A stretch of DNA of 64,000 nt from a virus. The position numbers were made by a program, and so were the translations under genes. Every line of letters starts with the position of its first letter. Within the stretch, counting starts at the first letter, position 1. This document shows, piece by piece, positions 18,407 to 34,110 of the stretch. Location of the stretch: positions 22,567-86,566 of the IMG/VR virus record IMGVR_UViG_3300006176_000004. One strand, written 5' to 3'. The notes below the pieces were generated by a model. That model was not told where the DNA came from and made no database searches. It was given only the letters and a program-made list of their open reading frames with translations.

Positions 18407-18459
18407 CTGAAAATAATTGTGCCAAGGCTCTTGTAATCCGGTCAAAATCCTGCCAATAA
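18407..18459 (+). promoter_or_regulatory. second copy of the CTGAAAATAATT promoter module
   Basis: CTGAAAATAATT (18407-18418), 12 bp, TTGTAA (-35, 18431-18436), 17 bp, CAATAA (-10, 18454-18459). The leader then contains the same 15-bp segment as at 11103-11117 (here 18476-18490), which includes the ribosome-binding site. The -10 is weak, so an activator may be needed. It drives the Ala-rich gene at 18495. Confidence 0.5.
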
Positions 18460-18494
18460 GCGGACACCGTAATTATGCAGCAGGAGATACTCCA

Positions 18495-19316
<822 letters not shown>

Positions 19317-23024: not shown

Positions 23025-23073
23025 CGCGCCTGGCGGTTCTCCGCTGAGCATTCCTCAGAACTCCCTAGACTTC

Positions 23074-23103
23074 GGCCGCTCGGTAACACGGGCGGCCTTT
23101 TTA
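23074..23103 (+). terminator. intrinsic terminator of the early cassette
   Basis: A 9-bp GC-rich stem (GGCCGCTCG at 23074-23082 against CGGGCGGCC at 23089-23097, one G-T pair), a short loop and TTTTT directly after. This is a textbook Rho-independent terminator, 50 bp after the last stop, and it separates the early cassette from the RNA locus that follows. Confidence 0.85.
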
Positions 23104-23127
23104 TTATTTAAAGTTTAAAAATAAAAG

Positions 23128-23155
23128 TTGACATCCTTAGATTGAGTGCTATTCT
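23128..23155 (+). promoter_or_regulatory. strong sigma-70-type promoter for structured RNA
   Basis: A perfect -35 TTGACA (23128-23133), a 16-bp spacer and TATTCT (23150-23155), which matches TATAAT at four positions. The upstream DNA is AT-rich (23103-23127), like an UP element. Transcription should start near 23161. No start codon with a ribosome-binding site follows for 340 nt. Confidence 0.75.
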
Positions 23156-23160
23156 ACGGA

Positions 23161-23447
23161 CATCATAGCAGAGTTGGGAATGCCCAAGACCCGGGTGAGA
23201 CACGACCGGGGAGTGGCACAGAAAGAACTCCGGAAGGATTCAGTTCAGAGGGAGCCCCTCCAAGGCCAACTGGCCCGGCCCATGAAAACCTACTCGGCCT
23301 CTACCGAGAGACTGCATCGAGCAACGAAACGGATGCAGGTGGCGGTAACCTAAGTGAGACTTGCGATGCTCCCTCTGAACTGAATCCTTCCGCTCTCTTT
23401 GTGGCCCAAACACAGACAAGCCCCGCCCCTCAAAAGGCCGGGTTTCT
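23161..23447 (+). ncRNA. structured non-coding RNA candidate upstream of HNH gene
   Basis: The region lies between a strong promoter and a weak terminator-like hairpin (23421-23442 plus TTT). A perfect 25-bp inverted repeat (23231-23255 against 23368-23392) encloses 112 nt, which itself folds into local hairpins: GGCC-AACT-GGCC, CTCGG...CCGAG, CTGCATC...GATGCAG and AGGT...ACCT. Upstream, GAGTT (23171-23175) pairs with AACTC (23226-23230). This closes a second domain with GGG-AATG-CCC and CCCGG-GTG...CAC...CCGGG hairpins, stacked directly on the long stem. One frame happens to stay open, but without start signals. I know no RNA family with this layout. Confidence 0.65.
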
Positions 23448-23511
23448 GCTGCTGTTGATTCGTTCTGCGATCTCGGCTAAAAACGCGAAACCCGCCGCAG
23501 GGATGAATAAA

Positions 23512-24000
23512 ATGGCAAAAGGCCGACCTGGGCGACAATGGCATCGAAAGAGAGTCGCGAACGGCCATTATGAAAATGGTGGTTTGGGCACCCTACTGCC
23601 AAGGCTTCGTGCCCTGGGTTTTAAGAAATATTCAGAATATCTTTCTTCGGCGCACTGGCAAAATTTGCGATCCGAATTGATGATTTTGCGCAGTGCACAA
23701 TGTGAAATATGTTTGGCAACCGGAGTAAGGATTTCCCTCCATCACAGGACATATGAACGGCTCGGAAGTGAAAGACATGAGGATATTATCCTTGTATGTC
23801 CCGAATGCCACGATCGAATCCACGCTAGCGAGCGGATGGGTGGGAAAGGAGGCTTAGAAGGTGCTCTGAAGCGCGTTCGTCGTCATATTCTCAAAAAACA
23901 AGGTCGTATGGAAGAGCTTAGGATTGATCGAATAGCCTCGAAATTGGCCGCCAGAAGATCCAAAGACGAGTGCGTTGCCAAGGGGCGCGAAACCGCGTAG
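23512..24000 (+). CDS. HNH endonuclease
   Basis: Start chosen at the ATG at 23512 (MAKGRPGRQWHRKRVANGHY), with AGGG upstream; ATG 23503 is an alternative. About 162 residues: a basic amino tail, YSEYLSSAHWQNLRSELMIL, CEICLATG, LHHRTYERLGSERHEDIILV, CPECHDRIH. The HH-x-x-Y...H-x-x-D...C-x-x-C-H...H order gives the HNH/treble-clef zinc nuclease core with CxxC pairs. The basic tail after it probably binds DNA. It follows the structured RNA on the same strand with no terminator strong enough to exclude co-transcription. Confidence 0.85.
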   Translation: MAKGRPGRQWHRKRVANGHYENGGLGTLLPRLRALGFKKYSEYLSSAHWQNLRSELMILRSAQCEICLATGVRISLHHRTYERLGSERHEDIILVCPECHDRIHASERMGGKGGLEGALKRVRRHILKKQGRMEELRIDRIASKLAARRSKDECVAKGRETA

Positions 24001-24009
24001 GTTCCTCTT

Positions 24010-24102
24010 GATCTCGGCGAGCAAACAGCGCGCCAGAGTACGGAATGGGGGCGCTGCCTTAACCATCCGTCGCTTTATGCCGGTTGGGCCGGTGCCGAGA
24101 TC
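24010..24102 (+). other. paired inverted repeats before exported gene
   Basis: GATCTCGGC (24010-24018) is complementary to GCCGAGATC (24094-24102). Inside, AGCGC (24027-24031) pairs with GCGCT (24051-24055), and CCGG...CCGG follows. The gap 24001-24131 has no gene. It may be a folded 5' leader of the gene at 24132 or an extension of the RNA locus upstream. Confidence 0.4.
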
Positions 24103-24131
24103 GCGGGAATGATCGATCGGGGGTTTAGCCT

Positions 24132-24476
24132 ATGCGCAGAGTTTTGATGGCTTTGGCTGCGCTGCTGTGCAGCACGGCATTGGCGCACGCCAACTCATTC
24201 GATCAGACAGCATGCATCAATTCGCTCGGCTATCAGCAGATCACGAATCTATCGTCGGCGGTGGGATTTACGAGCGTTCCGAGTGGAACGAATTATGCCG
24301 TGATTACGGTAGAGACGGCCGGAATCAGATGGCGAGATGATGGAACGGCACCAACGGCGTCGGTAGGGATGCCAGTCAGTTCTGGCCAGTCTTTTTCATA
24401 CACGACTAGTTTCAGCAAATTTCAGGCTATCCAACAGACATCTGGGGCTATCCTAGATGTTTATTTTTGCAGATAG
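24132..24476 (+). CDS. exported virion-associated-like protein (114 aa)
   Basis: Signal peptide MRRVLMALAALLCSTALAHA, then NSFDQTACINSLGYQQITNL. The carboxy half (YAVITVETAGIRWRDDGTAP, TASVGMPVSSGQSFSYTTSF, FQAIQQTSGAILDVYF) is a beta sandwich pattern (IRWRDDGTAPTA-VG-P) that in phages is found on small decoration or baseplate-type proteins. The signal peptide would direct it to the host envelope, which is odd for a virion protein. Confidence 0.6.
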   Translation: MRRVLMALAALLCSTALAHANSFDQTACINSLGYQQITNLSSAVGFTSVPSGTNYAVITVETAGIRWRDDGTAPTASVGMPVSSGQSFSYTTSFSKFQAIQQTSGAILDVYFCR

Positions 24477-24479
24477 GTG

Positions 24480-25373
24480 ATGGCCATGAAAACCCTCCTC
24501 GCAACCGTCCTCTCGTGGCTTGCGCTGTCGGGCGCTGTGATGGCGCAGGGACCGATAGTGCCGAATGGGGCAGCGTATCAGCCGACGCAGCAATCGTTCT
24601 TTTGCACCACAAATGGTATTACGGTTACTTGCGGTGGTTCAGGTAATTTTACTTGCGTAGCTGGGTTTCCCGCGACCTGCACGGCCCCTCCATCAATAAC
24701 GGGTCTCATTCAAGTTGATGGGTGCGCCGCCGGTGGTGGCAATGGCCTCGGTCAAGCCTCGGCGAGTACGGCTGGCGGTGGTGGTGGCGGTGCGGGTGAA
24801 TGCATAGCGCCTCCTTACCCCATCTCAGTTGCTCCAGGTCAATCGCTCAGCATCACCGTTGGAGCCGGAATCGCTAATGCGAATGGTGGCAATACCGCGA
24901 TGTCAGGTGCTTCAACTCCAATGAAAACTCTTGTGGGCGGTCTAGTAGGCGCGCCCGGAGTGACAGCTGTCGGCGGTACTGGAGGCAGCGGGCGAGGTCC
25001 CTCGACTTCAGGGTCAAATGCCGGCGGAACAGCCGGCAATCCAGGACTCCCGGCTGTTCTAAATACTCCATATGCATGTGCTGGTTCAGGTGGCGGCGGC
25101 GGTGCATCAACGGCGGGTGCCGCTGGCAGCGGTGGTTCCCCGGGCAATTCGGCTGGCGCTGGCCCGATGACCGGTGGCACTCAAGGTGGAACGGATGGCG
25201 GCGGCGGTGGCGGAGCTTCCTGCTTTGGCAATGGTGGGGCAGGCGGAGCTAACGGTGCTGCTGGAAGTACGCCAACCATAGGCTTTGGTGGGGGTGCTGG
25301 AGGGAATGGCAGCAATAGCGCGACGACCGTTCCCGGCGCGAATGGCTTCCTTCGGATTACCGGATATTGGTAA
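24480..25373 (+). CDS. exported glycine-rich protein (297 aa)
   Basis: Signal peptide (MAMKTLLATVLSWLALSGAV-MA). Residues about 90-290 are Gly/Ala/Ser/Asn-rich (AGGGGGGAG, GGTGGSGRG, GGNGSNS), ending GANGFLRITGYW. This is the same layout as the Gly-rich tail-fibre-like protein at 41198 (GGxGG tracts and a final I-x-I-x-E/G-Y-W/Y strand). Such Gly-rich domains cap phage fibre tips and bind host receptors. ATG 24480 is chosen; GTG 24477 and ATG 24486 are alternatives. TAATG overlap with the next gene. Confidence 0.65.
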   Translation: MAMKTLLATVLSWLALSGAVMAQGPIVPNGAAYQPTQQSFFCTTNGITVTCGGSGNFTCVAGFPATCTAPPSITGLIQVDGCAAGGGNGLGQASASTAGGGGGGAGECIAPPYPISVAPGQSLSITVGAGIANANGGNTAMSGASTPMKTLVGGLVGAPGVTAVGGTGGSGRGPSTSGSNAGGTAGNPGLPAVLNTPYACAGSGGGGGASTAGAAGSGGSPGNSAGAGPMTGGTQGGTDGGGGGGASCFGNGGAGGANGAAGSTPTIGFGGGAGGNGSNSATTVPGANGFLRITGYW

Positions 25374-26791
25374 TGCGGAAAATTGGAATCGCTCTCGTCC
25401 TGGCTCTTGCCGCCTCCAATGCATACGCGCAGAGTCCGCTGCGTCGATCTTCGCAGGTCTATGCCAATCTGTCCGCGACCGGCTATACGATCCCATCTGG
25501 ATTTGTAGGATTCAGTGCTGAAGCCGGTGATCTCATAGCCGGATTTTACCAAGGCGCGACTGGGGCCAATGGTTCATGGCTCGGTGTTGCAAATCTGCTT
25601 GGAAGCAATGGTGTATTGAGGATCGGAGGAAACTCATCCGATCAAGCGGCAACCGCCCCAGCGTTGACTGCTGGCATAGCGAGCGGCCTCGCAACCTTCG
25701 TGGCTGGCCTCGGGGCAGGATGGAAGCTGGTCTATGGACTAAATCTTCAGATCAACAACAGTGCGACAGCTGCGACACAAGCTGGATTGATCGCAACAGC
25801 CATGGGCGGCGGAGCGAACGCTGTCTTTCAGTTTGGCAACGAAGCCATCGGCAATTATGTCACGAAGTCCCAATACGAAACCAACTGGAACGCCTATTAC
25901 ACAGCAGTTTCTGGAACGGTGTCGGGGCTAAAGGTAGCAGCCACCGACACGGAAGATTTCGGAGACACTCAAGCTGTCATCGCGGCTCTCACGCCCGGTG
26001 CAGCGGGAATGACCTATGTCACCCAACACTGGTACGGCTCGCTGAACGGCGCGCCGTATACGGTCGCAAGTGCATCGCAGATGGTTTCGACCGTCGCGAT
26101 AAATTATTATTTGAATTCAGGCACGGGAAACGCAGCACTCCCCTATTCAGGGTACGAGATAAATAACAACTGGGCCGCTGCCAATGGCATTAAACTACGT
26201 CTCTCCGAGAGCAATAACATCAACAATCTCGGATTGTTGACCTACAGCGACCGAATGATGAGCGCGACGTGGTATATTAATGAGGCTATCGCGTTCTCGA
26301 ACATGGGGTGGGACGGGATCAACACTCATGTTGCCTATGGCAATGGAGCGGGAAACGGCATAGGCAAATACAATCCAATCGTCAGCAAGGACGGCGGAAC
26401 GACTTATCAGGCTGCGCCAGAGTTCTATGGTCAATATCTGTTCGCAAAGATTGAGGGACAACAGACGGTCGAAGTGTCGATAGGTGGCAACGCAAACCTC
26501 AACGCCATCGCGACGAAGGGCACTAACGGAAACGCAAATATCCTTGTTGTAAATAATGATCCGAATAATGTGGCTTACGTCTCATTCGGGCAATCATTAG
26601 CATGGACAACGGCGAATGTTCTGCCGCTGTCGGGAACGAGTTGTTCAGATACTGCCCCAACGCTGGGGGGCTCGATCATCGGTCCAGGAGGTTCGTGGTC
26701 AGGATCGTCTACTGCCGTAAATAGCGTCGGAGGCATTGGCAGTACAGCCATTCTGCCCTGCGGCATAGTCCTGATCCAGATACAGCCATGA
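25373..26791 (+). CDS. exported GH79-like glycoside hydrolase
   Basis: 472 residues with signal peptide MRKIGIALVLALAASNAYA. The body matches the family-79 beta-glucuronidase/heparanase style TIM barrel: GFVGFSAEAGDLIAGFYQGA, NGVLRIGGNSSD, VFQFGNEAIGNYV with the likely acid/base Glu157, and LRLSESNNINNLG with the likely nucleophile Glu279. A beta-sandwich end follows. It would cleave uronic-acid-type or related polysaccharides outside the cytoplasm. A normal host export signal on a phage enzyme suggests it acts from the infected or lysogenic cell. Family assignment is from motif memory. Confidence 0.7.
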   Translation: MRKIGIALVLALAASNAYAQSPLRRSSQVYANLSATGYTIPSGFVGFSAEAGDLIAGFYQGATGANGSWLGVANLLGSNGVLRIGGNSSDQAATAPALTAGIASGLATFVAGLGAGWKLVYGLNLQINNSATAATQAGLIATAMGGGANAVFQFGNEAIGNYVTKSQYETNWNAYYTAVSGTVSGLKVAATDTEDFGDTQAVIAALTPGAAGMTYVTQHWYGSLNGAPYTVASASQMVSTVAINYYLNSGTGNAALPYSGYEINNNWAAANGIKLRLSESNNINNLGLLTYSDRMMSATWYINEAIAFSNMGWDGINTHVAYGNGAGNGIGKYNPIVSKDGGTTYQAAPEFYGQYLFAKIEGQQTVEVSIGGNANLNAIATKGTNGNANILVVNNDPNNVAYVSFGQSLAWTTANVLPLSGTSCSDTAPTLGGSIIGPGGSWSGSSTAVNSVGGIGSTAILPCGIVLIQIQP

Positions 26792-26806
26792 TTGAAAGAT
26801 AGCCTG

Positions 26807-27001
26807 ATGCCAGTTCAATCCGCCAAACTCAAATCCTCATGGCTTACCGATGCGACCTATGACGACGCGACACAGACGCTAACGGTGACAACGGCGAGCG
26901 GGACGAAGCACGCGCACCAGGTTCCCCCGCACGTGTTTGCTGAACTGATGGCGGCGCCGAGTCCCGGTAAATTTTATAATGCTGTGCTGAGGCAGAAATG
27001 A
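26807..27001 (+). CDS. KTSC-like small protein (64 aa)
   Basis: 64 residues: LTDATYDDATQTLTVTTASG, TKHAHQVPPHVFAELMAAPS, PGKFYNAVLRQK. The order (Y-D...L-x-V-x-x-x-x-G...Y/H-x-V-P...F-x-x-L-x-x-A-x-S-x-G-x-x-Y/F-N) matches KTSC domains often found near lysyl-tRNA synthetases and in phages. Its function is unclear. Confidence 0.65.
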   Translation: MPVQSAKLKSSWLTDATYDDATQTLTVTTASGTKHAHQVPPHVFAELMAAPSPGKFYNAVLRQK

Positions 27002-27345
27002 CGGACGACGCCAAGCCAGCGAGCGATATAATCCCGCCCGGGCAGGCGATCGAATCTTCGCGCCGGCTGGATACGCATCTAACCAAGGCGATCCGTGACA
27101 CGCGGCGCGGGAGCCTTGCCGGCAAGATCGCAGATATTACCGAGCAGATGGGCGATTTTGCTCAGGAAACCCACGTCGTTCTTGATGGTATTTCCGACAA
27201 GATCGCAACTGCCAGAATGAAGCGTGATGAGGCGGCAGAGGCACAGCACGCACACTTCGACGGCTTGATTGGCGATTTCCAAGATACGATCGACGCGGTC
27301 GATAGGCTCTCAAATTTTCCTTTAGACAGAGGTGGCGAGAAATGA
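26998..27345 (+). CDS. coiled-coil-like protein (115 aa)
   Basis: 115 residues, almost all helical: RRLDTHLTKAIRDTRRGSLA, KIADITEQMGDFAQETHVVL, IATARMKRDEAAEAQHAHFD. Soluble and acidic. ATGA overlaps on both sides place it in one operon with the next genes. Function unknown. Confidence 0.6.
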   Translation: MTDDAKPASDIIPPGQAIESSRRLDTHLTKAIRDTRRGSLAGKIADITEQMGDFAQETHVVLDGISDKIATARMKRDEAAEAQHAHFDGLIGDFQDTIDAVDRLSNFPLDRGGEK

Positions 27346-27674
27346 ATCCTCCTATTATTGACCGCCTGAACGCGCGGATTGCCGCCGAGCCGGCGCTGAC
27401 CAGCCTCGACACGCTGTTTGTGGACTTGCAGGATGCCCGGGATGAGATCACGAGCCTGGACGCCAAGGTAACGACACTGGCGACCGCAGCGCTGAAGCCT
27501 ATGACCATCCAGGCTGCACCACAACCGACTACAGCCACCGCTAGCGTAACCGAGGTCTATGCGCTAATGGTTGACGCCAAGGAACGGCTGGCGGTCCATG
27601 CGTTATCAACGGTCGCGGACTATATTGACCGAGCCATCAAGCTTTTGGAGCCAACTCCCAAGGAGACGACATGA
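27342..27674 (+). CDS. small helical protein, paralogue A (110 aa)
   Basis: 110 residues: IIDRLNARIAAEPALTSLDT, DLQDARDEITSLDAKVTTLA, then an Ala/Thr/Pro linker. The carboxy segment VYALMVDAKERLAVHALSTV, ADYIDRAIKLLE is repeated in the next gene (DAKERLAVNSLSDVGYFIGR). The shared tail suggests duplication of one small domain. Confidence 0.6.
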   Translation: MNPPIIDRLNARIAAEPALTSLDTLFVDLQDARDEITSLDAKVTTLATAALKPMTIQAAPQPTTATASVTEVYALMVDAKERLAVHALSTVADYIDRAIKLLEPTPKETT

Positions 27675-27943
27675 CCGACGAAACACAGCCGACCGTAGCA
27701 GCCACTCTGACGCCAGCGCCAACCACGACATTGGGACTATCTCCGTTCGCATCCAATAATCCGACCGCACTCGGCAATCAGCCGAAAGCCGCAAAGCAGC
27801 CAGCGGCAGGCGATGTTGCGGAAGCAATCACGCTCCTGCAGGACGCGAAGGAGCGGCTGGCCGTCAACTCGTTGTCCGATGTCGGGTATTTCATTGGGCG
27901 GGCGATTACCCTCCTCGGAGGTCCGAACGATGCCGGGCTTTGA
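27671..27943 (+). CDS. small helical protein, paralogue B (90 aa)
   Basis: 90 residues. A disordered Thr/Pro/Ala-rich start is followed by ITLLQDAKERLAVNSLSDVG, YFIGRAITLLG, the same domain as in the previous gene. The last 14 nt overlap the following gene. Role unknown. Confidence 0.58.
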   Translation: MTDETQPTVAATLTPAPTTTLGLSPFASNNPTALGNQPKAAKQPAAGDVAEAITLLQDAKERLAVNSLSDVGYFIGRAITLLGGPNDAGL

Positions 27944-28229
27944 TGATCTGGTAGATTGTGCCCGAGTCGCTTCTAGCGACAAATTCAGTTGCGAGAAGTA
28001 TTTGCGCCAGAAGGCAAAGGAAGCTAACTGCCGATTGATCGGACCTGACTTTAAGGTCAATCAAGATGCCCTTGTGTTCGTCCTCAAAAAGGATGGCATT
28101 AACGGTCATGCGGTGGTCTCACTGTCTGGATTGGAAATGCTCCAGAATGCGACTGAGGAGTCGATCAAGGATTTGATCAAAACTCGCTTTGGCAATGCAC
28201 TCAAGACACTGCTCAAGATAGGAGACTGA
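27930..28229 (+). CDS. hypothetical protein (99 aa)
   Basis: Start at the ATG at 27930 (MPGFDDLVDCARVASSDKFS). 99 residues: CEKYLRQKAKEANCRLIGPD, NQDALVFVLKKDGINGHAVV. Alpha/beta, soluble. A GGAGG sequence lies upstream inside the previous gene. No family recognised. Confidence 0.6.
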   Translation: MPGFDDLVDCARVASSDKFSCEKYLRQKAKEANCRLIGPDFKVNQDALVFVLKKDGINGHAVVSLSGLEMLQNATEESIKDLIKTRFGNALKTLLKIGD

Positions 28230-28230
28230 T

Positions 28231-28845
28231 TTGCCTGGCATCAAAGGTACGGTTAAGGAATTCGAGGCCGGAAAATTGCATAGCGGATCGAAACATGGTC
28301 CAGTCGTGAAGTCACTAGCGCAGGCCCGCGCCATTGGGCTGTCCGAAGAACGCAAGGAGGGCCATAAAGTGGCTAAGAAGCACGAACCGCACCACGAAGC
28401 TACCGCCCCTGGTCATATGGGAAAAGTTCACAACCACCATGAGGAGCAAGGTCATATGACCAAAGCTCCGAGGCACGCTGAGCGCGACGGCGCCGGCCGT
28501 GGGGGCCATGACATGGACTACCATTCGGCAAGTGAGCACAAGGCTCCGCATCACCCTTCGAGGGGTGAGGCTGCAACGAACATGTCCCCGGGCTCGTTCG
28601 GCTATCCCGGCCAGAGCATGCGCCTCAATGAGGGCGACAAAGATCATGTGCTTGTCGGCGGGAACTACGACCAGTCGATGCACGAACCGGCTAAACTGAC
28701 GAACGTCAAGGGGCCTGCGGGCGGCATTGGCATGACGGCTGGCATGGGCAAGACGCCATCGGGATACGGGCACAAAGCATCGCAACGCGACGGGGTGCAT
28801 AGACTTTCTGGCCATAGTGGCGCGCATCGCCTCGGGAAAAGGTAA
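28231..28845 (+). CDS. DUF6496-like histidine-rich protein (204 aa)
   Basis: TTG start at 28231. The first 45 residues (GTVKEFEAGKLHSGSKHGPV, VKSLAQARAIGLSEER) match the DUF6496 pattern: E-x-x-x-G-x-L-H/K-SG-S-x-H-GPVV-x-x-QA-AIGLS-ER. The rest is His/Gly-rich and probably disordered (HHEATAPGHMGKVHNHHEEQ). His-rich tails may bind metal. The family is common near phage structural genes, role unknown. Confidence 0.68.
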   Translation: MPGIKGTVKEFEAGKLHSGSKHGPVVKSLAQARAIGLSEERKEGHKVAKKHEPHHEATAPGHMGKVHNHHEEQGHMTKAPRHAERDGAGRGGHDMDYHSASEHKAPHHPSRGEAATNMSPGSFGYPGQSMRLNEGDKDHVLVGGNYDQSMHEPAKLTNVKGPAGGIGMTAGMGKTPSGYGHKASQRDGVHRLSGHSGAHRLGKR

Positions 28846-28847
28846 CG

Positions 28848-29033
28848 ATGTCAGACGGTTACGCGCCATGTATCTACCAACTGATGGATGGCCGTTTCAC
28901 CAAATGGTTCTGCCGTTCGCACAAGCGAGAAGCGGACCATATCTGTCTCAATCCTCGCGGTCGGATTACTGTCTCATGCTCGCCTAATCTCGGTGGGATA
29001 ACTATTCCATGTCAGTGCGAACGGATTAAATAA
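28848..29033 (+). CDS. small Cys-rich protein (61 aa)
   Basis: 61 residues: MSDGYAPCIYQLMDGRFTKW, FCRSHKREADHICLNPRGRI, TVSCSPNLGGITIPCQCERI. Six Cys plus His residues suggest a zinc-binding fold. It starts 2 bp after the previous stop. The 44-bp gap after it holds no gene. Confidence 0.58.
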   Translation: MSDGYAPCIYQLMDGRFTKWFCRSHKREADHICLNPRGRITVSCSPNLGGITIPCQCERIK

Positions 29034-29077
29034 CCGCGCTGGACGGCATCCAGCATAGCAGAAGTAGGAAGAAGCAG

Positions 29078-29482
29078 ATGTTTACGATAAAGTTCTATAG
29101 CGGAGACGGTTGCCGGCAGATAATCCGAGAGGCCGAAAGCTTCACGATTTTGCGGTGTCCTCCCAGGCCTGACGATGATGGCTCGGCGGAAATCACGCTT
29201 CATCAGAAGGTTGGTTTTGAATCATGTCGGATTGATATTGGGGACGATAGCAAAGCTTCATTGCCAGAGGGATTTCCACCCCGATTTGCCAAGGCCATCA
29301 TCGAGAACTCGGCTGGCCGAACTACGGAAATCATCCAGATTAAGCCGAGCAGTCCAAAGGTTTCACAGCAAATCAAACAAGCCCTTGATACGATGAAGAA
29401 ACAGCCCCTGAGGCAACCACAGCAATATTTCGAACAAGAGAAGGGCTATGCCAATCAGCCTGCTCAGGCTCAAGAATCATGA
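29078..29482 (+). CDS. hypothetical protein (134 aa)
   Basis: 134 residues: MFTIKFYSGDGCRQIIREAE, SFTILRCPPRPDDDGSAEIT, beta-rich, then a Gln/Pro-rich disordered tail. ATGA-type overlap with the phosphatase gene. No family recognised. Confidence 0.6.
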   Translation: MFTIKFYSGDGCRQIIREAESFTILRCPPRPDDDGSAEITLHQKVGFESCRIDIGDDSKASLPEGFPPRFAKAIIENSAGRTTEIIQIKPSSPKVSQQIKQALDTMKKQPLRQPQQYFEQEKGYANQPAQAQES

Positions 29483-30201
29483 AGAAACCTGAAGCCCGTT
29501 CATTGCGCGAGATCATTGAGGACGCCATCACGGGCGAGAGTTCTATCTATTTGGTCCGCCACGGATCGACCACCCTGAACCGTGGCGGCGCTGGCAAAGA
29601 TTTGATTCGCGGATGGCGGGATGTTCCGCTTTCAAGCGAGGGAATCTCCCAAGCGCATCGCATCGCCAACGATCTCGAAGATTGTGACTTTCGCATCATC
29701 CGTACCTCAGACCTGATTCGCGCCGAGAAGACGGCGGACATCATCGCTGATGCAACCGGAGCAGAGGTCGAATCACTGCCTGAACTGCGGTCATGGAACC
29801 TTGGACCTAAATTCGAGGGCAAGCTGACGAACGCCAAGATAGTCGATGAGATCAAAGACCTCGTGGAGAACGACGACAAGACGCCAGAGGGTGGAGAATC
29901 ATTCAACGACTTTGTGCAGCGCGTCATTGATTGCGCAATGCCGATATTCGAGGATGCCAAGGGCGAGACGGCGATCGTGACGCATGGTCGCTGCGTGCAG
30001 ATAATTTCGCTGTGGATCGCGGCGGATTGCGATCTGGACTGCATGCGGCGGGAATATGCGACTGAACTGGCGTCGGAGCCTGATTCGATCTCGCCTGGCG
30101 GGTATCTGGAATTGAAGAAGATTGACGGCCGCTGGCGGTGTCTCCAGGAGGAAAATTACTCCGAGGATGGCGAGAAGCCTAAGGCTATAGTTGGATCGTG
30201 A
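29479..30201 (+). CDS. histidine phosphatase (phosphoglycerate mutase-like)
   Basis: 240 residues. IYLVRHGSTTLNRGG holds the catalytic R-H-G (residues 27-29; His28 is phosphorylated). RTSDLIRAEKTADIIADATG and SWNLGPKFEGK follow, and IVTHGRCVQI supplies the second catalytic His. This branch includes small-molecule phosphatases such as CobC and SixA-like enzymes. Its substrate cannot be read from sequence. Its place among virion-associated small genes gives no pathway. A nucleotide or signalling phosphate substrate is possible. Confidence 0.85.
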   Translation: MKKPEARSLREIIEDAITGESSIYLVRHGSTTLNRGGAGKDLIRGWRDVPLSSEGISQAHRIANDLEDCDFRIIRTSDLIRAEKTADIIADATGAEVESLPELRSWNLGPKFEGKLTNAKIVDEIKDLVENDDKTPEGGESFNDFVQRVIDCAMPIFEDAKGETAIVTHGRCVQIISLWIAADCDLDCMRREYATELASEPDSISPGGYLELKKIDGRWRCLQEENYSEDGEKPKAIVGS

Positions 30202-30202
30202 T

Positions 30203-30637
30203 ATGGCCGCGCAACCACCATTTGCCGTACAGCCATCACAGAATACCCAGCTTCCCACGCTGCAGGAAATGCAGTTCCTCAATTGGCTCAAACAAAATAA
30301 CGTCCCATTCAATCCAAACGCCCAGCAGTCCGATTATGATATGAGGGGATTCTATCGAGGTATGCAGCAGGGAAACCCGATGGCGACGACCGGGATAAAC
30401 CCGAATGACAACCTCATGCATTACACGGACTATTGGAAAACGCCATCGCATCAGTCTTTCTCTGCAGGTTCCCAGTGGGCAACCCCGAGCACTCCAGATT
30501 GGATCAATGATAGTCAGTTGGCGGCACCGAGCGGGAAAATCGTGTTTGACGAGAAGCTTGCGAATGCACCTACCACTCCCGATAATCTGATGGACAAAGC
30601 CATGATGGGCCTAATGCAGTCTCCGACTGGACAATGA
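30203..30637 (+). CDS. phage structural-module protein (144 aa)
   Basis: 144 residues: YDMRGFYRGMQQGNPMATTG, INPNDNLMHYTDYWKTPSHQ, SFSAGSQWATPSTPDWIND, GKIVFDEK. The YD-RG-x-x...D-x-x-HYPD-x-x-KTP-H-SFS pattern is a family found in phage structural regions, frequently near portal or internal virion genes. Function unknown. A disordered Gln/Pro-rich start precedes it. Confidence 0.68.
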   Translation: MAAQPPFAVQPSQNTQLPTLQEMQFLNWLKQNNVPFNPNAQQSDYDMRGFYRGMQQGNPMATTGINPNDNLMHYTDYWKTPSHQSFSAGSQWATPSTPDWINDSQLAAPSGKIVFDEKLANAPTTPDNLMDKAMMGLMQSPTGQ

Positions 30638-30641
30638 TTAG

Positions 30642-30890
30642 ATGAGAACGGGAACGGCGATATTCATCCTCGGGATTATATTCCTAGCCATGAATTCGGC
30701 GGGGTTCCGGAATGCGCTGTTCGGGCTTGTGGTGATTGTCGGCGTCGCGGTTGAGGTGCTGATAGTTTACGGCTCCGACAAGCCGCAGACGATATTCTAT
30801 GATCATGACGCGCATCCTGCATTTCTGCTGCGGGTGGGTGATTCGTGCCCGGGCGATCGGCATGTGTGGAATGGATGGTGTGTGAAATGA
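30642..30890 (+). CDS. small membrane protein (82 aa)
   Basis: 82 residues: MRTGTAIFILGIIFLAMNSA, GFRNALFGLVVIVGVAVEVL, IVYGSDKPQTIFYDHD. Two membrane spans, then a hydrophilic periplasmic tail with two Cys (GDSCPGDRH, WCVK). A holin-like topology is possible, but no lysin adjoins. Confidence 0.6.
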   Translation: MRTGTAIFILGIIFLAMNSAGFRNALFGLVVIVGVAVEVLIVYGSDKPQTIFYDHDAHPAFLLRVGDSCPGDRHVWNGWCVK

Positions 30891-30894
30891 CTAT

Positions 30895-30971
30895 ACCTCG
30901 GTAGCTCAGTGGGTAGAGCGTCCGTTTGTTTAACGGAAGGTCGATGGTTCGAGCCCATTCCCGAGGTGCCA
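30895..30971 (+). tRNA. tRNA-Asn (GTT) with irregular T arm
   Basis: Acceptor ACCTCGG (30895-30901) pairs fully with CCGAGGT (30961-30967), discriminator G, encoded CCA (30969-30971). D arm GCTC/GAGC, anticodon stem TCCGT/ACGGA with loop TTGTTTA, anticodon GTT. The T-stem 3' side has one extra T (CCAT-T-C), so the T stem is bulged. Position 37 is T instead of a purine. The full acceptor and CCA argue for a real gene, but decoding efficiency is doubtful. Confidence 0.75.
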
Positions 30972-31056
30972 CGCTCTTGCTAATACCGGCCCATTGATCT
31001 AGAAACCTCCCATGAACGCGAACCGCCATATTTCCCCCGATCGACCGCGCCCATCT

Positions 31057-31132
31057 CAGGGCGTGGGGAAAATGGTATCCCGCCGCATCTGGAGTGCGGA
31101 GATTGTCGGTTCGAGCCCGACCGCCCTGACCA
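31057..31132 (+). tRNA. tRNA-Pro (TGG)
   Basis: 76 nt. Acceptor CAGGGCG/CGCCCTG with the C1-G72 pair typical of proline, A73 and encoded CCA (31130-31132). D stem GGGA/TCCC, anticodon stem CCGCA/TGCGG with loop TCTGGAG, anticodon TGG; T stem GTCGG/CCGAC with TTCGAGC. The base before the anticodon (position 33) is C instead of the almost universal T. Otherwise a regular cloverleaf. Confidence 0.82.
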
Positions 31133-31154
31133 TAACGACCACACGCTAGCTTTT

Positions 31155-31231
31155 GCTGGCGTAGCTCAGATGGGAGAGCATCCGTTTTGTACTCGGAAGG
31201 TCGGGAGTTCGAATCTACCCCGCCAGCCCCA
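31155..31231 (+). tRNA. tRNA-Thr (TGT) with irregular arms
   Basis: Acceptor GCTGGCG/CGCCAGC, D stem GCTC/GAGC, anticodon loop TTTGTAC (anticodon TGT), and CCA at 31229-31231. Irregularities: a T-T mismatch closes the anticodon loop (TCCGT against TCGGA), the T stem has an extra A on its 3' side (CT-A-CCC against GGGAG), and the discriminator is C. The same kind of one-base T-arm insertion is found in the tRNA-Asn gene. The remaining gap to 31390 shows no gene. Confidence 0.7.
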
Positions 31232-31390
31232 AGTTTACCGCAGGGTCGCCAAGTCTGGTTACGGGTGCGATTCCCCGGAATGCGATGACTATGAGACAAA
31301 CCGCGATTACGGTTAAAATGGCTTTCGTATATCGATCAACCATAGAAAAACCTCTTCTGCTATTATGGCCGCCTCAGTTGGCGACCTCTT

Positions 31391-32218
31391 TCATTTGGCC
31401 TGTCCGCTTCGGTCACGTTGATTGGCGTCAGCAATATCGTCATCGGAGGGAGCGCCGTCTTCGTCGGCCAAAATCTCTTTATCGATTTCGAGCTTCTGAA
31501 TCAGCCGCTCGATTTCTTTCACGCCAATGTTGCCGCTCACGATCAAGCGGAAACTGGCATCTTTCGCCAGCATCCCCGTAGTTAACTCTCGTTCTCCGGC
31601 CATAACCTTTACCTTTCCGCCAAGAGGGGGCGGCGGCGGCGGATTTTGCTCTTCCTGCGCCTCTCCTCCGGCATCCTCTTCCTCTGGCTGGCGGGCGCCA
31701 GCGATAGGGTCAGGTTTATCAGAACTAGTGAGTCCTGCATAGGATATAGTGGCGTCATAAACCTTCAAAAAGTCGCGCGCTCCAGCCTCTCCGAACTTGT
31801 GCTTAAACATCAGATCATCAAGACAGGCAGCGTCGGCGGGACGGTCAGTTCCCCACTGGCTCCAGAAAAAGGCGATTTGCTTCGGGAGTAGCGCCGCTTT
31901 CTTTATGACCGTTTGCTTGGTCTCCTCCTGCGCCGATCGCAGATATGCCTTTCCCCAATCGGACGTGACGATATAGCGATCTTTGCCGCCCCCTTGGTAT
32001 TCTAACAATCCATAATAGCGCAGTGCCGCAGTGGTGCGATCAACGTATGCCTTCCCCTTGATACCCCAAGCCTCCCCGATCTTTTCAGGACGGGCCGGGC
32101 TTCGTTTGAAATGGGCATCAAACTCGACGAGCCGCTCAATAGCAGCCTTTAGCGGGATATTCGGATATGCCGGGCTTCGATCCCGTTGAACTGATGGTGG
32201 CGGCACTGCATCCGTCAT
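31391..32218 (-). CDS. winged-helix regulator-like protein (275 aa)
   Basis: 275 residues, the only leftward non-HNH gene in this part. YPNIPLKAAIERLVEFDAHF, AWGIKGKAYVDRTTAALRYY, GLLEYQGGGKDRYIVTSDWG, KKAALLPKQIAFFWSQWG form winged-helix-type domains. A Pro-rich acidic linker leads to SFRLIVSGNIGVKEIERLIQ. Relatives (IDLK-AL-RA...Y..KS.GGL.TVAALK.FGL....G..R...LT) occur in prophages and genomes as presumed regulators. Monocistronic, with its own promoter at 32242-32272. It may control lysogeny or late genes (inference). Confidence 0.65.
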   Translation of the reverse strand: MTDAVPPPSVQRDRSPAYPNIPLKAAIERLVEFDAHFKRSPARPEKIGEAWGIKGKAYVDRTTAALRYYGLLEYQGGGKDRYIVTSDWGKAYLRSAQEETKQTVIKKAALLPKQIAFFWSQWGTDRPADAACLDDLMFKHKFGEAGARDFLKVYDATISYAGLTSSDKPDPIAGARQPEEEDAGGEAQEEQNPPPPPPLGGKVKVMAGERELTTGMLAKDASFRLIVSGNIGVKEIERLIQKLEIDKEILADEDGAPSDDDIADANQRDRSGQAK

Positions 32219-32241
32219 GGCTTTGCCCTCCTATGGCAAAG

Positions 32242-32272
32242 CGTATATGGAACCGAGGCGGATAAATGTCAA
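32242..32272 (-). promoter_or_regulatory. promoter of the leftward regulator-like gene
   Basis: Read on the minus strand: TTGACA (32272-32267), then CATATA or ATATAC about 17-18 bp further (32249-32243). It lies about 25 bp before the ATG at 32218, with GGAGGG just upstream of the ATG. AT-rich DNA (32273-32310) flanks it. Confidence 0.55.
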
Positions 32273-32312
32273 CGACAATTTTATTTTTATCAGTTTTTTA
32301 TCACAGATAGGC

Positions 32313-32341
32313 TTGACGGATAGATAGATAGTCCTCATGGT
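32313..32341 (+). promoter_or_regulatory. weak rightward promoter candidate before structured RNA
   Basis: TTGACG (32313-32318), a 17-bp spacer made mostly of TAGA repeats, and CATGGT (32336-32341). The -10 is poor (3 of 6). It would start a transcript near 32348 that contains the structured RNA and tRNA-like element and ends at the terminator at 32656-32677. Confidence 0.35.
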
Positions 32342-32380
32342 GGCTTCGGAACGGAGGTCGTCATGTTTAGGAGGGTTTGA

Positions 32381-32467
32381 GCCTTTCGGCGCGCTGGCCG
32401 AGCACCGAAGGGCAAGGAAAAAGGAAGGGCCGCTGCGTCAAACCTCGGGGGAGGAACGCAACGGCCC
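32381..32467 (+). ncRNA. structured RNA candidate before tRNA-like element
   Basis: Two strong hairpins. GCCTTTCGG (32381-32389) pairs with CCGAAGGGC (32405-32413). GGGCCG-TGCGT (32427-32432, 32434-32438) pairs with ACGCA-CGGCCC (32456-32460, 32462-32467), enclosing an inner CCTC-GGGG-GAGG hairpin. A further hairpin ATCCCG...CGGGAT lies beyond the tRNA-like element. No coding frame with a start signal covers this stretch. Function unknown. Confidence 0.5.
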
Positions 32468-32486
32468 TGCAATCGGCTCTAGCTTC

Positions 32487-32563
32487 TCAGGGATCGTCTA
32501 ATTGGCAGGACACCCGCCCCTACAAGTGTGGAGATGTCGGTCCGAACCCGGCTCCCTGAACCA
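32487..32563 (+). tRNA. tRNA-like element with 8-nt anticodon loop
   Basis: Acceptor TCAGGGA (32487-32493) pairs with TCCCTGA (32553-32559), A73, encoded CCA (32561-32563). D arm GTCT/GGAC, T stem GTCGG/CCGGC with loop TCCGAAC. The anticodon arm is abnormal: stem CCCGC against GTGTG with a mismatch, and an 8-nt loop CCCTACAA. Counted from the 3' side the anticodon is TAC (valine); counted from the 5' side it is CTA (reads UAG). It may be a tRNA, a decayed tRNA, or a tRNA mimic. Confidence 0.55.
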
Positions 32564-32655
32564 TCGAACTAGTGGGACCGACCGCGTTGGAGCGCTGCCG
32601 ATCCCGAGTTACCAACCCCGGGATTGCGCCCCGAAGCGATAACCAGCCTGAATAT

Positions 32656-32677
32656 ACGCCTTGGAGGGCGTCTTTTC
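32656..32677 (+). terminator. intrinsic terminator after tRNA-like element
   Basis: ACGCC (32656-32660), loop TTGGAG, GGCGT (32667-32671), then CTTTTCT. A short but typical Rho-independent terminator. It separates the RNA locus from the transposase gene at 32722. Confidence 0.6.
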
Positions 32678-32721
32678 TAGGGTCGCTGACGGGCCATCCT
32701 TAACCAGAGGATTGCGCCCTC

Positions 32722-33624
32722 ATGAACGTTCTTTCCCGCGAAAAGCAAATCGAAGTCATCGCCGCCCTCTGTGAAGGCGTCGGCATCCGCACTGCCTCCC
32801 GCCTAACTGGCGTCAACCGTGGCACCGTTGGCAGCCTCGCCCTACGCGTCGGTCTTGGCTGCATGGAATTGCACGACCGAATCATGGTCGGCGTTCGCAC
32901 AGAGCGTCTAGAACTGGATGAGGCGTGGTCGTTCGTCGCGAAGAAGCAAAAGAACGTGCAGCGCCATGAAATCCACGCCAAGGGCAATCAGTACGTTTTC
33001 ATCGCAATGGCCGGGACGCAAAAGGCCATCATCAGTTGGGGGGTCGGCAAGCGTAATGCCGAAAGCACCATGGATTTCCTGCACGACTTGCGCGGGCGCG
33101 TCATCGGCCAACCCGAGATCAGCACGGACGGCTTTCACCCGTACCGCGTAGCGATCCGGGATGCCTTCGGCGATAGCGCATCGCATGGCGTCATCGTAAA
33201 GACGTACAGCGTAACGCATCTGGTAAAGGAAGCGCAGGGCCGGTACTCGCCCGCCGCCGTAGTAGCTGTAAGCAAGGAAGTAGTAACAGGCGATCCCGAC
33301 CAATACATTTCGACCAGCTACGTCGAACGGCAGAACCTTTCGCTTCGCATGGGCAGCCGGCGCTTTACCCGGCTCACTAACGGCTTTTCAAAGAAGCTGG
33401 ATAACCACGTTGCGGCGGTCGCGCTGTACGTCGCTCACTACAATCTCTGCCGGGTTCACGAAGCCCTGCGCACGACGCCAGCGAAGGCGCTGGGCATTGC
33501 CGATCGGACTTGGAGCATTGCGCAGCTTGTGGACGCGGCGCTTGCCGTTGCCCCTGCTACGCCCACCGAGACCCCGCCAGATCGACGGCGAAAATTCACG
33601 GTAATTCAGGGGGGACGGGAGTGA
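32722..33624 (+). CDS. IS1-family-like transposase
   Basis: 300 residues. The amino helix-turn-helix is QIEVIAALCEGVGIRTASRL, TGVNRGTVG. The catalytic domain has ELDEAWSFVAKKQKNV (first Asp), STDGFHPYRVAI (second Asp), then STSYVERQNLSLRMGSRRFT, RLTNGFSKKL with the third acidic residue in YVERQN, and YNLCRVHEALRTTPA. This is the IS1-like DDE transposase layout in a single frame. I could not identify terminal inverted repeats or a target duplication, so it may be a domesticated or transferred gene rather than a complete insertion sequence. Confidence 0.82.
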   Translation: MNVLSREKQIEVIAALCEGVGIRTASRLTGVNRGTVGSLALRVGLGCMELHDRIMVGVRTERLELDEAWSFVAKKQKNVQRHEIHAKGNQYVFIAMAGTQKAIISWGVGKRNAESTMDFLHDLRGRVIGQPEISTDGFHPYRVAIRDAFGDSASHGVIVKTYSVTHLVKEAQGRYSPAAVVAVSKEVVTGDPDQYISTSYVERQNLSLRMGSRRFTRLTNGFSKKLDNHVAAVALYVAHYNLCRVHEALRTTPAKALGIADRTWSIAQLVDAALAVAPATPTETPPDRRRKFTVIQGGRE

Positions 33625-33697
33625 ACCAAGTCCCTCGGAGCGGGACTAACTGCTGAGTCTTAGGTGCAACAGTCAAAAAAATAGGAACCGAACCGCT

Positions 33698-33879
33698 TGA
33701 CACGCATTGACTCGCATGGGTCAGCACAAGCATAGATTGAATATGGCGAGTTTGCGATTCCACCTGAAATTTCAGCAGGATCAAAGATTCGTTAACTGTC
33801 AAGGGCTTTCTTGTTGACCATCTGTTAAATACCTATATCCTGACGGAAGCGGCTTGACAGGCGCGGATGGGCATCCGCG
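33698..33879 (+). promoter_or_regulatory. promoter-like boxes and operator dyad in a 327-bp gap
   Basis: The gap 33625-33951 has no gene. It contains near-repeats TTGACACGCA and TTGACTCGCA (about 33698-33720). A second TTGACA (33854-33859) is followed at once by a perfect dyad, CGCGGATG-GG-CATCCGCG (33862-33879). The dyad lies where a spacer would be, which suits an operator. The likely target is the 52-residue gene at 33952. Confidence 0.42.
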
Positions 33880-33951
33880 TCACAATTAGTCGCGAATCAA
33901 ACGTTAATACTTTTTTGCGAAGATAATAATGGCGAGAAACTGGAGCGTCCT

Positions 33952-34110
33952 ATGGCAAAAACATCGGAAAAGACAACGGCGCCGACCCGGACGGGCGACG
34001 ACTTCGTCCGTATGTATCCCTGTAACCGCCTAAATGAGCAAATCCGCGACCCGAAAGAAGGCCTGAGCGCCTTCACCGTGCTCAAAGAGACGTTTTTCGC
34101 GGAAAAATAA
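33952..34110 (+). CDS. small hypothetical protein (52 aa)
   Basis: 52 residues: MAKTSEKTTAPTRTGDDFVR, MYPCNRLNEQIRDPKEGLSA, FTVLKETFFAEK. GGAG lies 7 nt before the ATG. It is a stand-alone gene between a promoter-like region and a strong terminator (34138-34167), suggesting separate regulation. No family recognised. Confidence 0.62.
   Translation: MAKTSEKTTAPTRTGDDFVRMYPCNRLNEQIRDPKEGLSAFTVLKETFFAEK

Follow-up and report, generated by a model that had tools for sequence, protein, structure and literature searches.

The locus lies in a viral record of 86,566 bases (86.6 kb), of which we analyzed a 64-kb stretch (referred to here as the window; positions are counted from its first base). At this locus, an intrinsic terminator that closes the upstream transcription unit is followed, all on the + strand, by a promoter, a structured RNA that spans 23161 to near 23455, and a small HNH endonuclease gene that is the first gene of its operon (Table 1). 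A promoter composed of TTGACA, a 16-bp spacer, and TATTCT had been reported in a preliminary description of this DNA. It was confirmed, and an extended −10 element was present as well. The pattern TTGACA-N15-18-TATTNT occurs only once in the 86.6-kb record. The predicted transcription start (23161) is 6 nt past TATTCT. The HNH gene was likewise found downstream on the same strand, as described, with a PF01844 match exactly at the cut-off, and its start is likely the ATG at 23512 behind AGGGA. No terminator separating the RNA from the HNH gene was predicted on the + strand; in the simplest reading, the RNA is therefore the leader of this operon, and the gene is probably cotranscribed with it.

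Table 1. Features of the leader RNA locus (window positions)
Feature	Position	Strand	Remark
Intrinsic terminator	23074..23097	+	Closes upstream transcription unit, just 5' of promoter
Promoter TTGACA-N16-TATTCT	23128..23155	+	Extended −10, A/T-rich stretch upstream
Conserved 5' domain of RNA	23161..23226	+	First base is the predicted transcription start; 62/66 identical in G051
Stem extension, 5' side (CA-g-AAAGA)	23219..23226	+	
25-bp stem, 5' arm	23231..23255	+	Arm sequence diverged in G051, pairing retained
Variable head	23256..23367	+	112 nt; G051 counterpart 78 nt, unalignable
25-bp stem, 3' arm	23368..23392	+	Perfect inverted repeat with 23231..23255
Stem extension, 3' side (TCTTT..TG)	23396..23403	+	
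Small 3'-end hairpin	23419..23444	+	Tail TTTCTGCT; not flagged by terminator prediction
Small HNH endonuclease	23512..24000	+	165 aa; first gene of operon

The terminator upstream of the promoter forms the 3' end of a region (23031 to 23112) that matched the suhB/mmgR sRNA family below the Rfam threshold (36.9 bits versus a gathering threshold of 41; E = 9.6e-6). A weak match (19.9 bits) was seen at the syntenic place in a relative, G002, whose terminase is 80% identical. The suhB/mmgR match may be mere terminator resemblance; Rfam suhB matches in other phages were mostly plain terminators, and 14 of 14 controls also gave the signal.

The perfect 25-bp inverted repeat enclosing 112 nt (23231 to 23255 and 23368 to 23392), to which the preliminary description had drawn attention, was borne out. 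The runner-up among perfect inverted repeats with arms at most 500 bp apart in the 64-kb window measured 13 bp, and the longest perfect inverted repeats in 20 randomized windows measured 11 to 14 bp; the 25-bp repeat is well outside chance expectation. Folding of the + strand, compared with that of shuffled sequences, gave z scores of −5.9 and −6.9 in two runs. In the predicted fold, the long stem is prolonged outward via AAAGA/TCTTT and then CA/TG, and the 5' end of the RNA is paired with its own 3' end. The small 3'-end hairpin and a pairing of 23165 to 23171 with 23449 to 23455 may close the folded leader. After removal of the stem and head, the flanks gave z scores of −2.5 on the + strand and −0.03 on the − strand, and this folding beyond chance on the + strand only fits an RNA transcribed from that strand. 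Two other structural details in the preliminary description did not hold. The 112-nt head, said to be rich in local hairpins, was no more structured than its shuffled versions (z = −0.64), and a second domain closed by GAGTT/AACTC had a pairing probability of about 1e-5 in the full transcript and was absent from the homologue described below.

Only one homologue of the RNA was found, at locus L158 of a phage record of 56,059 bases (G051). A search pattern taken from the 5' part of the RNA (GGTGAGACACGACCGG) matched seven viral contigs, six by chance and one as a true homologue. In a scored search, G051 positions 19125 to 19192 aligned with window positions 23161 to 23228 (94% identity over 68 nt; E = 4.7e-25), and this match was the sole DNA similarity between G051 and the record under study. 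The homology sets in at window position 23161, equivalent to L158 position 445, which lies 6 nt past TAGGGT and is the start expected there; the promoters themselves differ between the two phages. Neither a gapped pattern nor a covariance model of the 5' part (R1), the latter applied to 44 virus records and 1.5 Mb of retrieved DNA, yielded a third member. The model recovered just the two members, with an E value of about 1e-35. All comparisons of the RNA are thus between two homologues (n = 2).

A homologue search with a check for covariation had been proposed in the preliminary description, and the single homologue exhibited compensatory changes in the stem. In a structure-aware alignment of 28 stem pairs, made with the structure already known, 27 still pair in G051: 19 pairs were unchanged, 8 were changed on both sides, none was changed on one side only, and 1 (T-T) was broken. 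A one-base shift of the 3' arm lowered the number of paired cells from 27 to 17 or 18. When the arms were aligned by sequence alone, 23 of the 24 comparable pairs were kept in L158, with two double changes and no one-sided change. When the 3' letters were shuffled 20,000 times, this count of 23 was never attained (best, 19). The G051 inverted repeat was also detectable on its own (E = 2.4e-4 within its record), and the heads of the two RNAs (112 versus 78 nt) were unrelated, with no alignment between them. Judged from this pair of sequences, the stem is maintained through matched changes on both strands; i.e., the pairing and not the sequence is kept.

These stem data also bear on a small nonautonomous transposon, a reading offered in the preliminary description, in which the 25-bp arms would be terminal repeats and the CTC that flanks both outer ends would be a 3-bp duplication. 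The complementarity extends past CTC, however, and in G051 a covaried stem follows the shared 5' element in the same position. Searches of 2.9 million viral contigs and 84,980 genomes with exact 24-mers and 22-mers of the stem gave no other copy. We assign almost no probability to such an element. A MITE was rejected as an identity of the RNA, as exact-match searches gave no further copies.

The 5' domain was predicted to form two small hairpins (TTGGG/CCCAA and CCC-GGT/ACC-GGG). Their folding energy was ordinary, and one is missing an outer pair in G051; because the domain is nearly invariant across both members, its hairpins show no covariation signal either way. Most of the differences in the domain would be nonsynonymous in all frames, one of which contains a stop in this phage, indicating that protein coding is not the source of the conservation. 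Translations of the RNA gave no family or database match, and a protein-coding identity was rejected. The frame in phase with the HNH gene is open across the RNA (expected at about 3% for that frame and about 9% for any frame), and its start options are poor. A tRNA-like reading of the RNA failed.

A DNA palindrome would also show compensatory changes, and the locus might accordingly be considered a DNA-level element, i.e., an origin, a protein-binding inverted repeat, or a packaging or recombination site. However, in both phages the conserved block begins where transcription is predicted to start, although the promoters differ, and it lies on one strand and keeps the same orientation to the downstream genes; the strand bias in the folding of the flanks also argues against this explanation, and the skew shows no change at the site. 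We consider a DNA-level element very unlikely.

Regarding known RNA families, Rfam 15 at gathering thresholds detected three tRNAs only in the whole window. Over 23161 to 23455, there was no Rfam match at E ≤ 10 except for implausible chance or eukaryotic families, in agreement with the earlier remark that no described family has this layout, and two head motifs used as patterns returned chance matches only. Together with the homologue and the compensatory stem changes, the Rfam result supports a structured noncoding RNA of no described family. A retron noncoding RNA was rejected, as the record contains no reverse transcriptase (PF00078). The long inverted repeat of another relative (L053) proved to be a pair of self-palindromes and not the leader RNA. 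The noncoding region concerned (L053:7961 to 8244) lies upstream of a structural gene and contains a 27-bp direct repeat (GTTGAACTGAAACCAGATTCATTCTTT) and two copies of a palindrome (TGCCGAAATTTCGGCA).

The position of a structured RNA 5' of an HNH-domain gene is reminiscent of HEARO and the IscB omega RNA, and the preliminary description had suggested an RNA that works with the nuclease. In such a partnership, the HNH protein would be an RNA-guided nuclease or would be accompanied by an antitoxin-like RNA. The gene is adjacent and on the same strand, and its HNH domain bears a faint resemblance to the one in IscB (26 bits against a cut-off of 175). In contrast to HEARO and IscB-IsrB systems, however, no RuvC-HNH gene is present, and the 165-aa protein consists of an HNH domain without RuvC or other IscB parts. 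Neither member of the RNA pair gave a HEARO or omega RNA covariance match at E ≤ 10, and these identities were rejected. Furthermore, the gene next to the RNA in G051 does not encode an HNH protein (an HNH gene of other PHROG families is about 5.5 kb downstream in the early operon), and the regions upstream of HNH relatives in other phages and in plasmids or other replicons contained no such RNA or stem. The partnership was not borne out by these comparisons and is highly improbable. Close relatives of the HNH protein were absent from the viral and genome contigs; the alignment of its relatives (A1) was too divergent to serve as a search profile, and alignment-free AlphaFold modeling gave a poor model (pLDDT, 50). 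The HNH domain also weakly matched a CRISPR Cascade subunit with an HNH region (PDB 8yb6; E = 0.0017). The resemblance to this subunit and to IscB is likely general HNH similarity.

Upstream of the RNA in G051 is a gene for a CI/Cro-like regulator (PF13560; PHROG transcriptional regulators); downstream, the leader directly adjoins the gene that opens an early operon with a Sak4-like recombinase. A palindrome (TTCACAGATTGTGAA) is located inside the promoter spacer, with two similar sites close by, and the promoter therefore looks repressor controlled. The relative G002 contains the terminator and the same promoter at the syntenic place, yet it lacks the RNA; in G002 the conserved promoter is followed by genes for a peptidyl-tRNA hydrolase and for tRNAs. 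The RNA is thus a module whose presence downstream of this conserved phage promoter is optional, and the operon can dispense with it. What the sequences themselves show is the inverted repeat, the existence of a homologue, a common start point, the compensatory changes, and the leader position in both phages. The locus very probably encodes a genuine conserved structured leader RNA.

Given that 66 nt at the predicted 5' end of the transcript are almost invariant, that the helix is conserved in its pairing only, and that the loop is free to vary, the RNA appears to carry an element that some conserved component of the host recognizes by its sequence, followed by a structural helix. The explanation that we put first, tentatively and as somewhat less than probable, is a cis-acting leader in which the 5' element acts on the host transcription machinery and is followed by an RNase III-type helix. 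The nearly invariant 66-nt element would work through its sequence and, while nascent, would in cis let the polymerase read through the operon, like the HK022 put RNA. The helix would be a processing site of the RNase III type or an insulating structure, freeing or protecting the leader, and the loop on it would be dispensable. Transcription, cis action, binding to RNA polymerase or a partner, antitermination, and RNase III cleavage are all inferred. Against antitermination, terminator-like sites downstream were no more common than in shuffled sequences.

The HK022 putL element is about 70 nt long, comprises two stem-loops, and is located at the very start of its transcript; put RNA binds the zinc-binding domain of the RNA polymerase beta' subunit and suppresses termination in cis (PMC9378689). 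The leader may be comparable to the HK022 put elements (putL and putR): its predicted transcript opens with a conserved 66-nt domain and two predicted hairpins, which are of ordinary folding energy and of which one has lost an outer pair in G051. The G051 copy resembles put in place, being directly behind a repressor-type switch. The leader differs from put in that a long helix and a variable head follow, which the put element as described is without, and in that the leader RNA does not occur in lambdoid phages. The best ungapped match in the HK022 immunity region (24000 to 34000) covered 31 of 66 positions, equal to the shuffled control, and a search of a phage collection with the RNA gave no significant match. 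We do not claim membership in the put family; the likeness would be one of mode of working only. In the phage lambda N leader, a nut site is followed by a stem cut by RNase III and then by the first gene. The order of promoter, recognition element, long helix, and first gene is similar here, whereas no boxA-like sequence was found at the right place and no N-like protein was identified.

The long helix maintained by covariation also resembles rRNA leader-trailer helices, which are 25 to 40 bp long and are cut by RNase III (PMC10250234), although the loop in our case is variable, 78 to 112 nt long, and not rRNA. Preservation of the helix by pairing, as in those rRNA helices, would be expected of a leader that serves RNase III processing together with control of mRNA stability or translation and has no effect on transcription. 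Such a leader does not account for the much stronger conservation of the preceding 66 nt relative to the helix, and we consider it unlikely. The fixed 5' domain could instead be that of a discrete trans-acting sRNA, which would pair with or sequester a conserved RNA or protein of the host, with the stem as a stabilizing structure. A fixed target would account for the invariance of the domain, and the strong promoter and the closed fold with paired ends are consistent with an sRNA. However, no terminator is predicted before the next gene, and the G051 RNA continues into the first gene. In addition, DNA searches with both members against phages, plasmids, and E. coli genomes on both strands gave short chance-level matches only, a result that rules out long complementarity only. 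A trans-acting sRNA is therefore rather doubtful, without being far-fetched.

Phage RNA-only antitermination is known from the HK022 put family. As an independent RNA element that stands at the start of phage operons and is nearly identical in otherwise dissimilar phages, the leader would be a good candidate for a second such class and a tool to drive long operons. It is conceivable that RNA-only antiterminators include a second class, unrelated to put, to which the leader belongs, or that it reprograms some other host machine; in either case, a 66-nt 5' element fixed in sequence, together with a helix fixed in pairing and an exchangeable loop, would have spread between dissimilar phages. We hold this with less confidence than the cis-acting leader itself. 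At minimum, the locus adds a new RNA family with a helix backed by compensatory changes.

Several other features were observed in the window and its relatives. The gene at 32722 to 33624 is partly similar to IS1-family transposases (PF03400 at the cut-off; NF033558, 47.7 bits with a cut-off of 100), and an open frame at 18417 to 19316 encodes a long run of alanine/aspartate/tyrosine repeats (AAAADAAAA). A histidine phosphatase family gene (29479 to 30201; PF00300, E = 4.7e-34) has similar DNA or protein in G002 and two other relatives (G004 and G021). In G002 (L023:3752 to 4338 and L005:5054 to 8658), the peptidyl-tRNA hydrolase gene behind the conserved promoter is of the PTH2 type and has an in-frame TAG as its third codon. 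The same phage carries a tRNA with the anticodon CTA, another tRNA-like gene with CTA in the anticodon loop as well, and, further on, a cluster of 28 tRNAs. From its sequence, G002 is a candidate for amber recoding.
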